Virus record (IMG/VR): IMGVR_UViG_3300006615_000042
Span: 745-41,990 of that record
DNA length: 41,246 nucleotides
Source of the DNA: a virus
Reading direction: 5' to 3' (one strand)
This document shows, in pieces, positions 17,638 through 27,167 of this stretch. The notes below the pieces were generated by a model. The model was not told the origin of the DNA. It did not search any database and saw only the letters and a list, made by a program, of their open reading frames with translations. Numbering within the stretch: the stretch's first letter is position 1; each line of letters begins with the position of its first letter. Position numbers and translations under genes: made by a program.

Positions 17638-19134
17638 TTACTCGCCACGCTTGCCGATGATGTCATCGATGCGCAGGATGCTGATAGTGACTTCACTTGC
17701 AGACTGAATGGCCTGCTTGACTAGATTTAGTGGTTCCCATACATCAGCACTCTTCATTGACATAGTGCCCCCGTTTTCAATATCGGGGCCATAATCGATG
17801 TTACCTGATAGGTGCTCATTTCTGAGTGCCAGCACGGTGTCCAGTGGATCGTGACCTGCATTCTCAGCGATAGTAGCAGGGATTGTTTCTAGTGCGTCTG
17901 CAAAGGCATCGATAGCCATTTGAGCACGGCCACCAATCTCTGCCGCTCTGCTTCTTAGATTGATAGCAGAGTTGAGATATGCTGCGCCTCCACCCGGTAC
18001 GACTTCAAGAGTATTGTATGCCAAGCACACTACACCGAGAGCATCTTCAAAGCCACGCTCGGTTTCATCGAGTGTCTGCTTAGTAGCACCTCTGAGGATG
18101 AGAGTAGTGACTTCACCCTTGCCTTCGACTACGACATACTTCATGTCACCAATGGCTCTGCATTCGATACCTGCATCGACAGCATCCCCTAAGTCCTCGA
18201 TAGTGTGGGCTACATTTGTATTGAGAAGTAGACCTAGTGCGGTCATATCACTCTCAGGCAAACGCTGTACAACGCTGACACCAGCCTTAGCCAGTGTAGC
18301 GGCGACCACTTCATTTACATGGTCCCTAACGAATACTGCGCCGCCATTAGGTAGACGCTCAATGATAGCCTCTGCTTTCTTAACCCAAATATCTCTAGTC
18401 GTGGTCTGCTGATATTGCTGATATTCAGCAGCAGATCCAAGTGATACCTGTACATTGTCCTCATTCTTCTTATTGCTGAGTCCAGTGTTGATTAGTAGTG
18501 CTTTATCTTGTAGTAGTGGCATAGCAGGTAGCATGAACTCCTTGTGTAAAACTACACCTGAGAAACATGTTGAATCCTCTAAGCCCCCACCGGGCTGACA
18601 TAGGACACGGATGCGCTCAAAATCGCCTCCAGCCAATTCTGCCGCCTTTACACATAATCCACTGACATGTTCCATGGCAGATTCTAGTGATTTACCTGTG
18701 ATTGAAGTCTGAGCCACATGCGTTAGATGCGGCTTTGCTGCTTCTGACAGTGACTGAATGTGCTCGACAGCCCATTGCGCTGCTTGTCTGTAACCTTTAC
18801 AGATTACATTAGGGTGTAGACCCTTTTCAAATAGTGATTCTGTGTTACTTAGTAATTGACCTGCCAATACTACTGTACTGGTCGTGCCATCGTAACACAT
18901 GCTTTCTTGTGTGTTAGCGGCTTCAATTATCATCTTGGCACCGGGGTGGGAAACATCAAGTTCCTGCAGAATTGTAGCCCCATCATTTGTTACAATGACA
19001 TTGCCACCTCCATCTACCATCATCTTGTCCATTCCCGCCGGACCTAGCGTCGTTCTAACCGTGTCTGCTATTGCTTTCGCAGCACGAATGTTTAGGCTCT
19101 GTGCTGTTTGTTGTTGCTCTCCATTATTTACCAT
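17638..19134 (-). CDS. Group II chaperonin (thermosome) subunit
   Basis: A 498-residue ATP-dependent protein-folding chaperonin of the thermosome/CCT type, expected to form a double ring in the cytoplasm. Recognisable blocks are [10 protein letters not shown] (30-39), NDGATIL (50-56), [12 protein letters not shown] (81-92, with the Asp expected to take part in ATP hydrolysis), the [21 protein letters not shown] hinge region, [21 protein letters not shown], and the end [17 protein letters not shown]...LRIDD. The apical domain keeps a segment ([12 protein letters not shown]) where the built-in helical lid lies in group II enzymes. It is about 40-50 residues shorter than cellular subunits and lacks a Gly/Met-rich tail. 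The residue before DGTT is Tyr where Gly is usual. It overlaps the preceding gene by 7 bases. Chaperonin genes are known in magroviruses; here it might fold the very large tail proteins, which is inference. Confidence 0.93.
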
Positions 19135-19682
19135 TCTACATCAAACTCCATTGGTATTTCTTTGTCTCTTTGTCTCACCTTTATAGTACCTGCGCTGCTA
19201 CAGCGCTCTATCAAGTCGAGAATTATATTTGCATCTGATATGCAATCTTCAATTATTTTGACTTCGCTACCCTTTTGCCAAATTGGTGCGTATATCTCAG
19301 TGAGTAACTGAGATGTTAAATCTGTATCGTTTAGATTCAGTTTCTGTCCAGTCAGTTTCTTCAAATCTTTATCGATATCTATAACATGATTTTCAATGTA
19401 ATTTATCATGTCACTAGGGTTAGATTTGGTTATACCCGACCAAGATAAAGTGAGTCCGTAATCCTGAGTATTTTTCAAAACTAATACCCCTCCATTATCT
19501 ACAATAAGTGCCATTTCGTCTTGTATTTTTGAGTATTTTATAGGTTTGGAATTAATGTAAGGTCGATGACTAGTGTATACAGACAGGTAGTCCTCGCCAG
19601 TTATGACCACTACTTCGGGGGCATCCACTATATGCGAAAACTCACTACCATAGGCTAACACTACAAAGTATTGATCTTTCAT
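19128..19682 (-). CDS. Uncharacterised protein upstream of the chaperonin
   Basis: A 184-residue protein I do not recognise. The N-terminal half seems beta-rich ([42 protein letters not shown]), the C-terminal half helical ([42 protein letters not shown]). It has no obvious signal peptide or metal site. Its end overlaps the chaperonin start by 7 bases and its start overlaps the stop of a 53-residue zinc protein, so it is likely translated together with the chaperonin. Any link to chaperonin function is only suggested by this coupling. Confidence 0.7.
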
Positions 19683-19840
19683 TCCTCCTCACCCGACAGT
19701 GTGTTGAGGCTTTCGTGCATTGCACCCATACAGGCTAAGCAAAAATCACAAAAGTCCACCTTTAATAATCCAAAGTAACCACTGATGCCTTCTTCTTTGT
19801 GCTCATACTTAGCACCGCATAAAGTACAGGCCTTTTTCAC
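19679..19840 (-). CDS. Small zinc-binding protein (53 aa)
   Basis: A short gene starting with GTG at 19840, which overlaps the stop of the upstream ATPase gene (GTGA). It has an excellent ribosome-binding site, AAGGAGGGAAATAA. The protein begins KKACTLCGAKYEHK and continues with DFCDFCLACMGA, giving CxxC and CxxCxxC groups fit for one zinc ion, and ends in an acidic tail (SGEEE). Its stop overlaps the ATG of the next gene. The function is unknown; it belongs to the set of tiny zinc proteins scattered through the block. Confidence 0.65.
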   Translation of the reverse strand: MKKACTLCGAKYEHKEEGISGYFGLLKVDFCDFCLACMGAMHESLNTLSGEEE

Positions 19841-21246
19841 TTATTTCCCTCCTTACTCCTATGCTCTTTGAGTAGTCGGACATACTTACTTTTCCCCTCA
19901 CGGGTTTCCTCAAACAGACTTTTCCCCGCTTCGTTGTATTTGTTATTGATTCCGGGCATACTACTCAGATTCTCGTTTTTACCGAACATCTTCATAACTT
20001 CTACTTTCTTTGCCCATCCCGGCCCACGATTGTCATTGAAGTCGTATTGCTCACACCGCCAATAAGAGGATTTCCAACTGGCTTCTAGTTTCCTCTTGGT
20101 AGCACTTGCCATGCCTACTTTAACTTCGGATTCAAGCCAGTCAATTAGATTGTGATATAGGTCATACAGTATTTCTTTAGCCATGTCAACATGGTCGCCT
20201 GTAACGACCCATACACCCTCTATCATAGCCATGTGATGTGCCAATATGTTAGTGTAATTCTGTAATCCCATGATGAAAGAAGCACACACACCCTGTTTCT
20301 TAGGGTCCATGTTTTCTACTAAATCATAATAGTCATCAATAGCCTGATGCAATGCCGATCTATACGATGCATCGATTTCAAACATGTCATACATAGCATT
20401 CATAGTCCAACCCTCTTGTAGTTCACGGGTAGAATCCATCCATTCCTGTGCACTGATTCCATTAATCTGTAGTACTCTTTGTTTCAAACGGGTCATCAAA
20501 TCAGTAAAGAAATCAACAACTTCATCATAAGATACTTCAAACTCGACCCTGTTGTGTACAGCGTCTGCTAGTTCGTGTGCAATGTTACGCTTCATTTCAA
20601 GAGTCCAGTGCCTCCAATAAACTAGTACTCTTTGGAAAATACCTTTGTCAAGTACATGCTCTTTGATGCCCTGCGGAGGGAATGTAGTAATCCATAAAGA
20701 CACTAAAGATTCTATGGTAATCGTACCATCTTTCAAGTGCTTTGTCAAAAAGTTTCTACCTGTACCTGCAGAGTTTAGTGCTGATTGCAAGAATAAAACA
20801 GTTTGTTCTGAATGCTGTGTAGGCTTGAGAATAATAGAGCCTTCATCGAAGTTCATACCCTTTGCACCCGCTAATACACCGGGCGTTTGTACCAAGTTAT
20901 CATCACCGTCCCTACTCCAAGAACCTACCATGGCCGCATCTGTACCAGTTGTATAATCAACACACTCTATACCTACATCTTTCATCACCTTTTGAATGAT
21001 TTCAAAGGCAACAGATTTACCAGTCCTAGTGTCTTGAATCCAAAACATGCTAACCCTTGGATCGATGTTAGATGCCCCAATTGGCATTCTTACAAAGGGA
21101 AGGGCTGCTTGTCCAAGAATAAAGAAAAATGATAGTAAGCCGGGTATTTCGTTGTCTTTAGATACCTCTCTAAAGTGCTCTAAATACCCTCTTAAAATTG
21201 GATATTTCTGCATGCATTCATAATGTTCTACGCTGTGTTCTATCAT
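19837..21246 (-). CDS. P-loop ATPase, candidate replicative helicase (DUF3987-like)
   Basis: A 469-residue protein with a P-loop in WIQDTRTGKS (69-78), where Gln stands in place of the first Gly of Walker A; an acidic pair in GMNFDEGSII (DE 134-135) fitting Walker B; and a sensor-like strand SLWITTFPPQGIKEH followed by DKGIFQRVLVYWR (about 183-212). The last part resembles the G-(L/I)-x-Q-R-x-L signature of DUF3987-type primase-associated ATPases. The C-terminal half is helical and ends in a basic stretch. It lies between the ERCC4 nuclease and the chaperonin, in one run with primase and PolB. No MCM or DnaB gene is visible here, so this is a candidate for the replicative helicase, which is inference. 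A packaging or annealing role cannot be excluded. It starts by overlapping the nuclease gene by 4 bases. Confidence 0.6.
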   Translation of the reverse strand: MIEHSVEHYECMQKYPILRGYLEHFREVSKDNEIPGLLSFFFILGQAALPFVRMPIGASNIDPRVSMFWIQDTRTGKSVAFEIIQKVMKDVGIECVDYTTGTDAAMVGSWSRDGDDNLVQTPGVLAGAKGMNFDEGSIILKPTQHSEQTVLFLQSALNSAGTGRNFLTKHLKDGTITIESLVSLWITTFPPQGIKEHVLDKGIFQRVLVYWRHWTLEMKRNIAHELADAVHNRVEFEVSYDEVVDFFTDLMTRLKQRVLQINGISAQEWMDSTRELQEGWTMNAMYDMFEIDASYRSALHQAIDDYYDLVENMDPKKQGVCASFIMGLQNYTNILAHHMAMIEGVWVVTGDHVDMAKEILYDLYHNLIDWLESEVKVGMASATKRKLEASWKSSYWRCEQYDFNDNRGPGWAKKVEVMKMFGKNENLSSMPGINNKYNEAGKSLFEETREGKSKYVRLLKEHRSKEGNK

Positions 21247-23443: not shown

Positions 23444-24400
23444 TCACCACCTCGGCCAATAGTGCTCACCGCCCGGTTTCCAAGCGGGGCAATCTTCAGT
23501 AAAACTGCACCAAGCACATTTACCTTGGTGTGGTTTTGGTGGGAAGTTATCTGTAAAGTAGGCCTCTAACAGATTATTGATGTCCTTATCTAAGGACTTA
23601 GAATAGGACTTAACTACCTTCTCGTGTTTCCAACTATCTATGAATCTGACACCCTCCATGTCATCTCCGCAAGAGCCATCAGGGTAGAACCAACCCCAGT
23701 GAGTTACATTCTGTAGCGGGTGGTCTGCCATTTTGAGCAAATCGACATAGAATGCCATTTCTTTACGCATCCCCTGTACTTTGTACCTATCATCAGCCCA
23801 GTCGTTCTTTTTCTTATCCCACTTTTGTTTCCACTTGCCTGTTTTCAACTCCATAAGGCTAATTGAACCATCTTCATTCTCAAAACCACGGTCAATCATA
23901 CCTGCAAAGTGTATAGGAACTGTGTGTGTTTTCCCATTGTGTACAAACTCACGCTCTGTAAATACATGTATCTCATCTTCGTTAATGATTGGTAAAAAGT
24001 TGTGACCTTGTGTGGCCTCTAGTCGATCTAACTCCCAATCCAGCCTTTTGATTAGTATTTCCTGTTCGCCTAGAAGGTAAGGCTCTTCGGGTTCAGGTAG
24101 ACTTTTCACAAACAAGGCGAATGCTTCTTCTCGCCTTTTGTCGTTAAGTAGGCTAAGTACCTTGTCTAAGTTAGGCCTAACATAGACATAGAACTCCTCC
24201 ATTGCGTTGTGTACATTTGTACCCTTACGCATTGCGTCAGTTTCGGGTGTCTTCCTACCCTCTCTACGCTTGTAATGATACTGCTGTGGGCAGTAATCGA
24301 AGTCGCTTGTCAAACTAGACTTAGTGATTCGTAAATGTAATTCATGTCCCGGTTCCCACTTATATGTGGACTTCTTGTATGCTTCAAAATCTCTACTCAT
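23444..24400 (-). CDS. Cas4/RecB-like PD-(D/E)XK exonuclease with Fe-S cysteines
   Basis: A 318-residue nuclease. The ATG at 24400, which overlaps the previous stop and follows GAGGATGATGAAA, is chosen over one 90 bases upstream. RITKSSLTSDFDYCPQQYHYKR (C37) and RKGTNVHNAMEEF (H64) open the PDDEXK_1 fold; the catalytic core is FAGMIDRG (D170) and SLMELKTGK (E184-x-K186), followed by Gln209 in YKVQGMRKE. Near the end GKCAWCSFTEDCPAW gives C295, C298 and C304, which together with C37 match the four-cysteine 4Fe-4S arrangement of Cas4 and AddB. Such enzymes resect DNA ends in recombination or help process replication intermediates. No CRISPR array or other cas gene is present, so a replication or recombination role with primase and PolB is more likely. 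It ends one base before the primase start. Confidence 0.85.
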   Translation of the reverse strand: MSRDFEAYKKSTYKWEPGHELHLRITKSSLTSDFDYCPQQYHYKRREGRKTPETDAMRKGTNVHNAMEEFYVYVRPNLDKVLSLLNDKRREEAFALFVKSLPEPEEPYLLGEQEILIKRLDWELDRLEATQGHNFLPIINEDEIHVFTEREFVHNGKTHTVPIHFAGMIDRGFENEDGSISLMELKTGKWKQKWDKKKNDWADDRYKVQGMRKEMAFYVDLLKMADHPLQNVTHWGWFYPDGSCGDDMEGVRFIDSWKHEKVVKSYSKSLDKDINNLLEAYFTDNFPPKPHQGKCAWCSFTEDCPAWKPGGEHYWPRW

Positions 24401-24662
24401 TTTCATCATCCTCATATAGCACATATTCTTGTTTTTCGTCATCCCAATATCTGCTTGAACGCCCTGTCCTTGATTCTTGAATCCAAACAAAGGGAAGAAC
24501 CTTGTGAAAGAATCCCTTTTCCATTAAGTGTTCTTCAATACCTCTTGGTGGATATGTCGTTTTCCAATTATCAATGTTAAAGCATTCTTTACAATGTTTC
24601 CCTGTCCTTTCTAAAGTAAAGGCTTTTCCACATTCAACGCAATTTCCTTTTTCACTCCTCAT
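24393..24662 (-). CDS. Zinc-ribbon protein carrying ATPase-like motifs (89 aa)
   Basis: The N-terminal 30 residues form a zinc ribbon (GNCVECGKAF and KHCKECFN). Residues 35-56 then match the sensor segment of the P-loop ATPase at 19837-21246: TTYPPRGIEEHLMEKG against TTFPPQGIKEHVLDKG, continuing FFHKVL against IFQRVL, 13 of 22 positions identical by eye. Immediately after, WIQESRTGRS (60-69) matches that ATPase's P-loop WIQDTRTGKS in 7 of 10, but here it follows the sensor segment instead of preceding it. The end is acidic (YEDDENE). The Lys of the P-loop is replaced by Arg, so ATP hydrolysis is unlikely. It has 4-base and 8-base overlaps with its neighbours. It might be a partner-binding mimic or a rearranged remnant; the function is unknown. 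Confidence 0.65.
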   Translation of the reverse strand: MRSEKGNCVECGKAFTLERTGKHCKECFNIDNWKTTYPPRGIEEHLMEKGFFHKVLPFVWIQESRTGRSSRYWDDEKQEYVLYEDDENE

Positions 24663-24808
24663 CTCCTATCCCTCCATTCATCAAAGGCATGAGCGGCTCC
24701 ACAAGAGCACCAACCCCATGCTTGATAACCGCCCGCCATAGCGGAAAATTGACTAGCCTTAACTATGCGCCCACATATACACTCTCTTTCAGATTTCGGT
24801 TTATCCAT
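24659..24808 (-). CDS. Tiny zinc-binding protein (49 aa)
   Basis: The start at 24808 is preferred because it follows GGTGATAAT just after the PolB stop; an in-frame start inside PolB would add 11 residues. ECICGRIVKASQF and GWCSCGAAHAF give two CxC pairs for one zinc site, and the protein ends DEWRDRR. Its TGA overlaps the next ATG. The function is unknown. Confidence 0.55.
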   Translation of the reverse strand: MDKPKSERECICGRIVKASQFSAMAGGYQAWGWCSCGAAHAFDEWRDRR

Positions 24809-24812
24809 ATTA

Positions 24813-27167
24813 TCACCAGTACCTCTTTGGTCGTGCTGCACCCGAAGCCGCCTCTAAGTCCCATTCAAGGGCTTGGAATATCGGCTTGACTTTTCGCTTA
24901 ACTAACCTGTCAACCATTTTCTCCCAATCGAGCGTAAAGCCCTCCATCTCAGATATGTCCTTGTAACAGACAATATCTGTAGGTGCGGCCCAGTCAGGAG
25001 AAGCGGCAACATACACCCACGGTACACTGTCACCTTCATCAAACTTGGGCTGGTTGAATCGCCCCGCCATGTGTTTGTTGTAGTACACTGCTGCCTTAGC
25101 GCCCAAGGTTGGTTTGGCGTAGTCCTTCAATCGCTTGGATATTCTAGTAACCCCAGTGACATCTTTCAATTCGACATCTGCCTTCTGTATCTTGAGTGCG
25201 ATTGGCCTAACATGGTCTATCACATCTGCTTCTGATGCACCTTGGCACACTAAGTTTAGCACATCTCTCTCTAAGTTGCGAGAGATAGGTGCAAGAGTGG
25301 AAATCTTGCCAAATCGGGCAGATTTAGCCTTGCCCTCATCTTCAGGGGGCCAAGAGCATATACCGTAGTAGAGATTTTTCCCCGCTACTAACCAGTATGG
25401 CATATATGCCTCAAACTCCACGAATAGGTGACTTGCATTGAGATCGACTTGTACCTTGTCTGTCAGATGCTTGGCTAGTGCCGGTGCTTCATCGAATGGT
25501 ACACTCACGAATGCCGAATCAGTGTGACCGTACAGGGCCTCGTAGCCCTGAGCCTCTGATTCCTCCATTAGGAACTTGATTGCCTCTCTACCACAGGCTG
25601 TGATAGCATTGGCAATGTCGAAGTCACACCAGCCCCAGTGAGCACTCGCGACCATGCCATATAGGCTCGCCATCACCCTTTTGGTAGCAAGTTGCATGGT
25701 GTTCCAACCCGCTCTTTCAGTCGGGGTTTCTGCTTCTCTCATTCTGCGCTTATATTCGTCACGCAATTCAAACATTTCCTCTACAATCTGAGGAAGTAAG
25801 CCTTTCTTGGATTGGTCCCAACAAGAACCGTCAGGTAACTTGTGTATACCGGCTTCACCGGCTCTACTTCGATCTACTTGGGTTTCCCACGAAAGTGAGT
25901 GTGAGAGTATGAGTGAAGGGTACAACCCCTTGTAATCTACACAGGCTACACCTTCGTACCTGCCCGGTTTGGGCGGAGGAATGTATGCACCCTCGTAGTC
26001 CTGCTTTTCTGTATCAGGTCTAGTTGGTGCCTTCCAGTGTGTGCGCCTACTGAGCAGGCCACGAGCGAATCTAGTTACATTGTGGCATGAAGTGAATGTC
26101 ACACCACATATGCGTTGTAATGATAGGAAGAAGTTTAGAACATGGTTTTCTTCATCCATTCTTTTGAGTAGTAAAGTATCTTGCATACAGTAGTCGCAGT
26201 AGTCATCAAACCTTTCTCTCCATCCTGTAAATACATCCATGTCAAACTTGCCACCGTAGTCTAATACATCGGGGCCTGTAATGTGGTCTAATTTTCGACT
26301 GGCTAACTGCGGTTTGCCGCTATCCTTCCATACACGCTCAAAGCCCGTGCCACTGTCATAGGGTGCCGCTGTATCAAAGCACAGTCTACCTATGATTGGC
26401 TGGTCTGTGTACTTGTAGCCACGCTCATTCTTAGGTGGGCGTAATACACGCCCAAGTGGGCTAAGTCGCCTAAACTCATCTAGTCTACGAACTAGGTGTG
26501 GTAAATCTGCCCACATGATAGCGTGGGCTACGAGTATGTCAGGGTTGCATTCCTCTAAGTAATCCAAAAAGGCACTGTGCATAGATTTCTCATCAGTGTA
26601 GAATAAACGCTCGTAACTAAACTCGACACCTTCGTACTTTACATGGCGTACTTCTTTTCTAACGAAGCCCTTTTCTTCTATCTCGGCTGTTTCTTCGCTC
26701 CAGCAAAATGTAACATTCCGATTGTTGTAATTGTCTACTACAGACATTACAGTAGTGAAATCCTCATGCGGATCCCATTCCAAGTCAAAGTGCCATACAC
26801 GGGGTTTCCATTCCGGCATCTCTTGTATCTTATCTATGAGGTATCTGTCTGTTAGGCTTAGGTCAGCCTCCCATGTTTTGCCGAACTCCTTCTGCATGTT
26901 CCTTAAATCAGATTGCCTGTAAGCGTATACCTTCACTAAATCCTCTTCTGTCCTTAGTGCTGTAGCAGTGTCATTCCGGTCTATGCTACTACCATAGTAG
27001 CGACCTAAGACCCTATTTACAATACGGTCACTAGTGTCGGCTTTAATCCAAAAGTAAGGCCTGAAGTTGTCAATGTGTTCCTCTATGAGGTTGCCCTCAG
27101 AGTCACGCCACCGCTTGTATATGTGTGCATGCTCTTCGGGGTCAGGGTGGTATGAATTGATAATCAT
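24813..27167 (-). CDS. Family B DNA polymerase with 3'-5' exonuclease
   Basis: A 784-residue replicative polymerase of normal archaeal PolB length. The proofreading domain shows Exo I WHFDLEWDP (D128, E130), Exo II around HAIMWADLPHL (D221, but Ala where the conserved Asn is usual) and Exo III YCMQD (Y326, D330). The polymerase domain shows PPPKPGRYEGVACVDYKGLYPSLI (motif A, D411; Gly in the usual Ser place of SLYPS), KRVMASLYG (motif B, K496 and Y503; Ala in place of the usual Asn) and LYGHTDSAF (motif C; His548 in place of the first Asp of the DTD triplet, D550 kept). The two metal-binding Asp residues D411 and D550 remain, so the enzyme should be active. The stop of a small coiled-coil gene overlaps its ATG. 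PCNA lies two genes upstream and primase three genes after it. Confidence 0.95.
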   Translation of the reverse strand: MIINSYHPDPEEHAHIYKRWRDSEGNLIEEHIDNFRPYFWIKADTSDRIVNRVLGRYYGSSIDRNDTATALRTEEDLVKVYAYRQSDLRNMQKEFGKTWEADLSLTDRYLIDKIQEMPEWKPRVWHFDLEWDPHEDFTTVMSVVDNYNNRNVTFCWSEETAEIEEKGFVRKEVRHVKYEGVEFSYERLFYTDEKSMHSAFLDYLEECNPDILVAHAIMWADLPHLVRRLDEFRRLSPLGRVLRPPKNERGYKYTDQPIIGRLCFDTAAPYDSGTGFERVWKDSGKPQLASRKLDHITGPDVLDYGGKFDMDVFTGWRERFDDYCDYCMQDTLLLKRMDEENHVLNFFLSLQRICGVTFTSCHNVTRFARGLLSRRTHWKAPTRPDTEKQDYEGAYIPPPKPGRYEGVACVDYKGLYPSLILSHSLSWETQVDRSRAGEAGIHKLPDGSCWDQSKKGLLPQIVEEMFELRDEYKRRMREAETPTERAGWNTMQLATKRVMASLYGMVASAHWGWCDFDIANAITACGREAIKFLMEESEAQGYEALYGHTDSAFVSVPFDEAPALAKHLTDKVQVDLNASHLFVEFEAYMPYWLVAGKNLYYGICSWPPEDEGKAKSARFGKISTLAPISRNLERDVLNLVCQGASEADVIDHVRPIALKIQKADVELKDVTGVTRISKRLKDYAKPTLGAKAAVYYNKHMAGRFNQPKFDEGDSVPWVYVAASPDWAAPTDIVCYKDISEMEGFTLDWEKMVDRLVKRKVKPIFQALEWDLEAASGAARPKRYW

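Follow-up and report, generated by a model that had tools for sequence, protein, structure and literature searches.

A 41,246-nucleotide stretch of viral DNA (the window; IMG/VR record IMGVR_UViG_3300006615_000042) raises the question of why a protein of 89 residues should carry two pieces of a much larger ATPase encoded nearby. The small ORF, here called zn89, lies at 24393–24662 on the minus strand, where a previous sequence-only reading had placed it. It has close relatives, which we refer to together with zn89 as mimics. Its parts follow in the order zinc knuckle, segment 1, segment 2 and acidic tail. The zinc knuckle (24582–24641, minus strand) was recognized from its sequence, CxxC...CxxC, with C8, C11, C24 and C27. 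Segment 1 comprises residues 33–58 (24489–24566, minus strand; WKTTYPPRGIEEHLMEKGFFHKVLPF) and segment 2 comprises residues 60–69 (24456–24485, minus strand; WIQESRTGRS).

The sequence-only reading had described a CxxC/CxxC protein of 89 residues that joins two segments of the 469-residue ATPase, and the sequences bear this out. There are 13/22 identities between zn89 35–56 and ATPase 187–208 and 7/10 between zn89 60–69 and ATPase 69–78, both as counted before, and the order of the two segments is truly swapped. The further claim that the P-loop and sensor motifs were copied holds for the segments and fails for the catalytic residues of both motifs. Segment 1 has HK in place of the invariant QR of the ATPases, and segment 2 reads GRS instead of GKS, so zn89 lacks the Walker A lysine of an active P-loop ATPase. 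Nothing in Pfam or PHROG matched zn89 above the cut-off; a Pfam FYVE zinc finger match (E 0.001) fell short of it. Alone, zn89 gave a poor structure model (pLDDT 51.6). On one side it is flanked by the PolB gene (24813–27167), behind which lies a Cys-rich 60-aa ORF (24659–24841, minus strand). This ORF shares the accessory slot of zn89, lies upstream of it and has no similarity to the ATPase. On the other side of zn89 is a PD-(D/E)XK nuclease gene.

The 469-aa ATPase (19837–21246, minus strand) models as an MCM-like AAA+ ATPase related to DUF3987. Its AF2 model had a pLDDT of 87. Every top Foldseek match in the PDB was an MCM helicase (E 6e-12, TM about 0.5), and among the viral proteins of BFVD its neighbours were members of DUF3987 and helicases or primases of phages. 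For the DUF3987 ATPases, a role as replication helicases in mobile elements has been predicted (PMC5862659). By sequence, the window's ATPase gave no match to PF13148 or PF00493 at E ≤ 1 and stayed below the Pfam and PHROG cut-offs; Pfam DUF3987 (PF13148) matched 1 of 34 ATPase homologues (E 1.6e-4). An hhalign profile comparison of the ATPase with MCM aligned the Walker A alone, weakly. This conserved MCM-like ATPase of the virus group, present in the window and 189 related stretches, almost entirely escapes sequence searches with Pfam and PHROGs. One contig, L228 (NZMJ01000138.1), is binned as a Maricaulis MAG and carries this viral ATPase at 44% identity; the contig is therefore probably viral or misbinned. 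A pattern search found no mimic in it.

Because the ATPase models as MCM-like, the copied segments can be assigned to predicted parts of its active site. Segment 2 corresponds to β1 and the Walker A (residues 69–78, WIQDTRTGKS; 21013–21042, minus strand), and segment 1 corresponds to residues 185–210 (20617–20694, minus strand), which run from β4, the sensor 1 strand, through a helix to Q205-R206. K77, Q205 and R206 are invariant in 34/34 ATPases, and the copied regions rank among the most conserved of the protein. In the model, the invariant Q205-R206 stands at a fitting place after sensor 1 for a trans arginine finger. The ATP site of MCM lies between subunits, one of which supplies the Walker A in cis and the other the SRF arginine finger in trans; the strand order of MCM is 5-1-4-3-2, in which β1 adjoins β4 and β5 (PMC4619765). 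The two copied pieces may be the two halves of such an inter-subunit ATP site, where the arginine-finger half is presumed from position and fold.

Comparison with shuffled sequences, which the sequence-only reading had proposed as a check, supported segment 1. Smith–Waterman alignment (BLOSUM62) of zn89 33–58 with ATPase 185–210 gave a score of 98, which none of 5000 shuffled controls reached (mean 31, sd 4.7, max 64), and segment 1 matched the ATPase HMM at E 2.4e-6 among 29,973 small ORFs. Segment 2 alone was not significant in pairwise comparison and reached E 0.54 against the ATPase profile (about 30,000 ORFs). Its likeness, seen as the 7/10 identity, is secured by relatives with the same tail, whose version matches the P-loop of the ATPase with E between 1e-5 and 7e-3. 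The codons of segment 1 are 77% identical to those of the ATPase gene at positions 1 and 2 and 19% identical at position 3. Segment 1 is therefore no recent DNA copy, and any common origin is old. Recent copying of the resident ATPase gene, or gene conversion by it, was rejected. Neither the co-linear remnant nor the recent DNA similarity to the ATPase gene that would mark a pseudogene or rearranged copy was found.

Signs of selection on the mimics were modest. Of the codon changes between the window and L005 ORFs, 6 are synonymous and 3 nonsynonymous (dN 0.03, dS 0.22); between the L179 and L005 ORFs the counts are 9 and 8. The synonymous excess over the 25% expectation had P of about 0.01 in each comparison. 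Between the zn89 genes of the window and L001 there was little constraint (dN/dS 0.6–0.8).

Scans of IMG/VR and the full records behind the matches showed small mimic ORFs in no fewer than 13 contigs of marine viruses, namely the window and 12 others. This is a rare family: a single scan gave 189 ATPase-bearing stretches, compared with 13 contigs for the mimics. Its members carry the P-loop segment only, the other segment only, either one behind varied N-termini, or both. The P-loop module stands alone in L182 and L041; it follows the zinc knuckle in L006, a different Cys-containing N-terminus in L005 (7795–8001) and L179, and a coiled-coil-like N-terminus in L178. The segment-1 module is a 46-aa protein in L007 and L014, where it stands alone, and in L214, and it follows the zinc knuckle in a second ORF of L005 that has lost the P-loop. 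Both modules occur together in the window, L001/L002 and L003. The joint in zn89 lies where both modules read R/K-V-x-x-F-x-W. As judged from these sequences, zn89 is a fusion of two pre-existing mimic modules. Since the modules occur separately in other viruses, the swapped order reflects their fusion and not an inversion of the ATPase gene. The suggestion that zn89 is a rearranged gene fragment does not survive, because third codon positions are saturated and both segments exist elsewhere as separate small genes (L007, L014 and L214 for one, L041 and L182 for the other) and behind other N-termini. Absence or free variation of the segments in homologues had been named as a refuting result. 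Some homologues do lack a segment, as a whole module (segment 1 in L006, segment 2 in L005), and the segments that are present are conserved save for the catalytic residues.

The copying was specific to the ATPase. A profile of the whole ATPase, built from 81 ATPases, was searched against the 29,973 small ORFs of all loci. Only two of its regions were recovered, profile positions 66–100 and 195–223 (best E 1e-5 and 8e-7, respectively), and after filtering no other ATPase segment was found among the small ORFs. When small ORFs were compared with all large ORFs, with gene ends and read-through or out-of-frame overlaps removed, no internal-segment matches appeared except the ATPase mimics. An additional segment-1 scan added no new contig. 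INPHARED phages held no relative of zn89 or of the ATPase, and no mimic was found in species genomes. Within the copied pieces, the mimics keep W69, Q71, T75, G76, T188, P190 and P191. K77 is replaced by R, N or L in every P-loop mimic, and Q205-R206 by HK or CK in every segment-1 mimic. Searches of IMG/VR found no WIQD..RTG with N, R, S or H at the K77 position, and no source ATPase with the mimic-specific letters (EKGFFHK; WIQE..RTG without K).

The mimics also move between viruses. A 405-bp stretch holding the 60-aa ORF and zn89 (24401–24805) is delimited by BLASTN breakpoints against L044 and L052. The close relatives of the window, whose ATPases are 88–96% identical to its own, lack this stretch or have another small Zn ORF in its place, and its joints are start codons. 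At the DNA level, zn89 is shared with L001 and L003 at 96–97% identity; the identity of their ATPases to that of the window is 25% for L001 and 62% for L003. Such sequences indicate that the gene moves horizontally between distant viruses. The GC content of zn89 is 36.7% against 43.8% for the window (4th percentile); it falls below the 1% level in L003 and is normal for L001 (34.6%). The donor was therefore probably an AT-rich virus with a divergent 509-aa ATPase. Most mimics are closer to the ATPases of other lineages than to their own. The segment-1 score against another lineage's ATPase versus the resident one was 101 versus 57 in L001 and 97 versus 54 in L005. The own ATPase ranked 12, 27, 28, 13, 27 and 20 of 28 for segment 1, and 26, 2, 44, 41, 45 and 37 of 57 for the P-loop segment. 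In the mimics of the window and L003, segment 1 lies fairly near the resident ATPases. An ATPase-sized ORF with a match to the sensor segment was present in 13/13 mimic-bearing or comparison records. A homing element found no support: no endonuclease was found with the module, and the mimic DNA is unlike the resident ATPase gene.

A second slot for small genes lies between the ATPase gene and an exonuclease-like gene. It usually holds a 45–50-aa Zn-ribbon ORF. According to the translation and the slot survey, the window has a 53-aa small Zn-ribbon ORF with a GTG start there (19679–19840, minus strand), directly downstream of the ATPase. In G003 this post-ATPase slot is occupied by a segment-1 mimic and in G005 by a P-loop mimic, both standalone.

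Several other features of these slots were observed. Between PolB and the nuclease gene, small genes are exchanged as units that run from one start codon to the next in the window (24393–24841), L003, L006, L044, L047 and L049. Their acidic C-terminal tails (EEE, EDDENE) are apparently the ribosome-binding site of the next gene read in frame. In L001 (5971–9498) and L005 (6149–9851), PolB consists of two ORFs. The break comes immediately ahead of the YGHTDS motif, and several small ORFs, mimics among them, lie in the gap; there was no sign of an intein sequence. The window gene at the exonuclease-like position (19128–19682, minus strand) lacks the ALDIET motif of its relatives and resembles them only in position and C-terminal end. 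After the mimic gene, several viruses encode a conserved protein of about 60 aa (EDEVCKKIQAR..VGKKKYGVTM...HLQEELMDAAVYVEKLL), found at L003:2722–2913, L006:6102–6293, L001:8134–8439 and L179:1698–1934. It has no Pfam match and is MazG-like by eye. The virus group also carries thermosome, PolB, clamp-loader-like and Sak4-like genes, and this gene content suggests a magrovirus-like virus of Poseidoniales.

We speculate, with a probability of about 0.4, that the zn89 family consists of horizontally moving mini-proteins that carry dead halves of an ATP site and act as a decoy or poison subunit of the ATPase. The earlier proposal that zn89 works as a mimic, binding to the ATPase or to its partner, is still the leading reading of the sequences. 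The poison-subunit reading is favoured by the specific similarity, the fact that only the ATPase is mimicked, the constant replacement of the catalytic residues, the post-ATPase slot and the horizontal transfer. The mimic would bind the viral MCM-like ATPase at or near the subunit interface, and could then block ring assembly or ATP turnover in the manner of a microProtein. Its target may be the replication ATPase of a co-infecting rival more likely than that of the carrier, because most mimics fit other lineages better and zn89 seems at home in AT-rich viruses that have the 509-aa ATPase. A purely anti-rival role fits poorly with segment 1 of the window and L003, which is near their own ATPases. 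Segments from core strands would also be unusual as an interface peptide. The wider picture is a rather unlikely one: marine viruses would trade helicase-ring jammers against rivals, dead ATP-site halves built from interchangeable modules, and the carrier's own divergent helicase would be spared.

Other explanations share part of this evidence. A third protein, such as a helicase loader, primase, polymerase or host factor, might recognize the segments, and the mimics would then compete for that partner or recruit it; the zinc knuckle would give them a further point of attachment. The adjoining PolB, PD-(D/E)XK nuclease and ATPase genes agree with such a partner, as do the small Zn-ribbon proteins usual in the post-ATPase slot and the retention of the segments without their catalytic residues. 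A single partner surface would not predict that the Walker A and the sensor 1/arginine finger, two segments of one ATP site, are copied, and we consider this explanation somewhat doubtful. The mimics might instead soak up a host- or virus-encoded antiviral sensor or inhibitor that recognizes conserved ATPase motifs, and indeed few regions of the ATPase are as conserved as those copied, and mobile accessory genes are what counter-defence would predict. A faithful decoy would have no need of catalytic residues that are always altered, we know of no sensor of this kind, and this explanation seems to us quite improbable.

The mimics could also be functionless debris, pieces of foreign ATPase genes that by chance were caught in hyper-recombining small-gene slots and are carried along passively. 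Fast slot turnover, junctions at start codons and acidic C-termini that resemble the next ribosome-binding site in frame are what debris would leave. It would hardly be limited to two ATPase regions in several separate architectures, with no other conserved gene giving such pieces, and its ORFs would not be expected to stay intact across distant viruses. This specificity and the synonymous excess in two comparisons weaken the debris explanation, which we regard as improbable.

If the poison-subunit reading is true, the mimics would represent inhibition by catalytic-site peptide mimicry and point to AAA+ ring inhibitors that occur naturally and are built out of pieces of the ring's active site; to our knowledge, no such system has been described. 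The modules are short enough for direct synthesis and testing. The mimics give access to the question of competition among uncultured marine archaeal viruses within one cell, and they draw attention to an MCM-like replication ATPase, conserved throughout the virus group, that has lacked annotation.

Among known systems, the MCM AAA+ helicases and the viral primase-associated ATPases of DUF3987 (PF13148) have a fold like that of the 469-aa ATPase, which differs from them in its unusual Walker A (QDTRTGKS); zn89 has no AAA+ domain. Like zn89, the small zinc-ribbon accessory proteins of phages have CxxC...CxxC, fewer than 100 aa and a place in an operon among replication genes. Unlike zn89, none of the families searched carries ATPase segments. 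MicroProteins of plants and animals are small, sequence-related to a larger protein and thought to form unproductive complexes (PMC7534434, PMC4807768). zn89 resembles them in being small and related to part of a larger protein. However, microProteins hold a whole interaction domain, whereas zn89 holds two short catalytic-site segments and no complete domain. The mimics further differ in being made of catalytic-site pieces of 16–35 residues from two places. In these pieces other residues stand in for the catalytic ones, fusion has swapped their order, and the genes pass from virus to virus.
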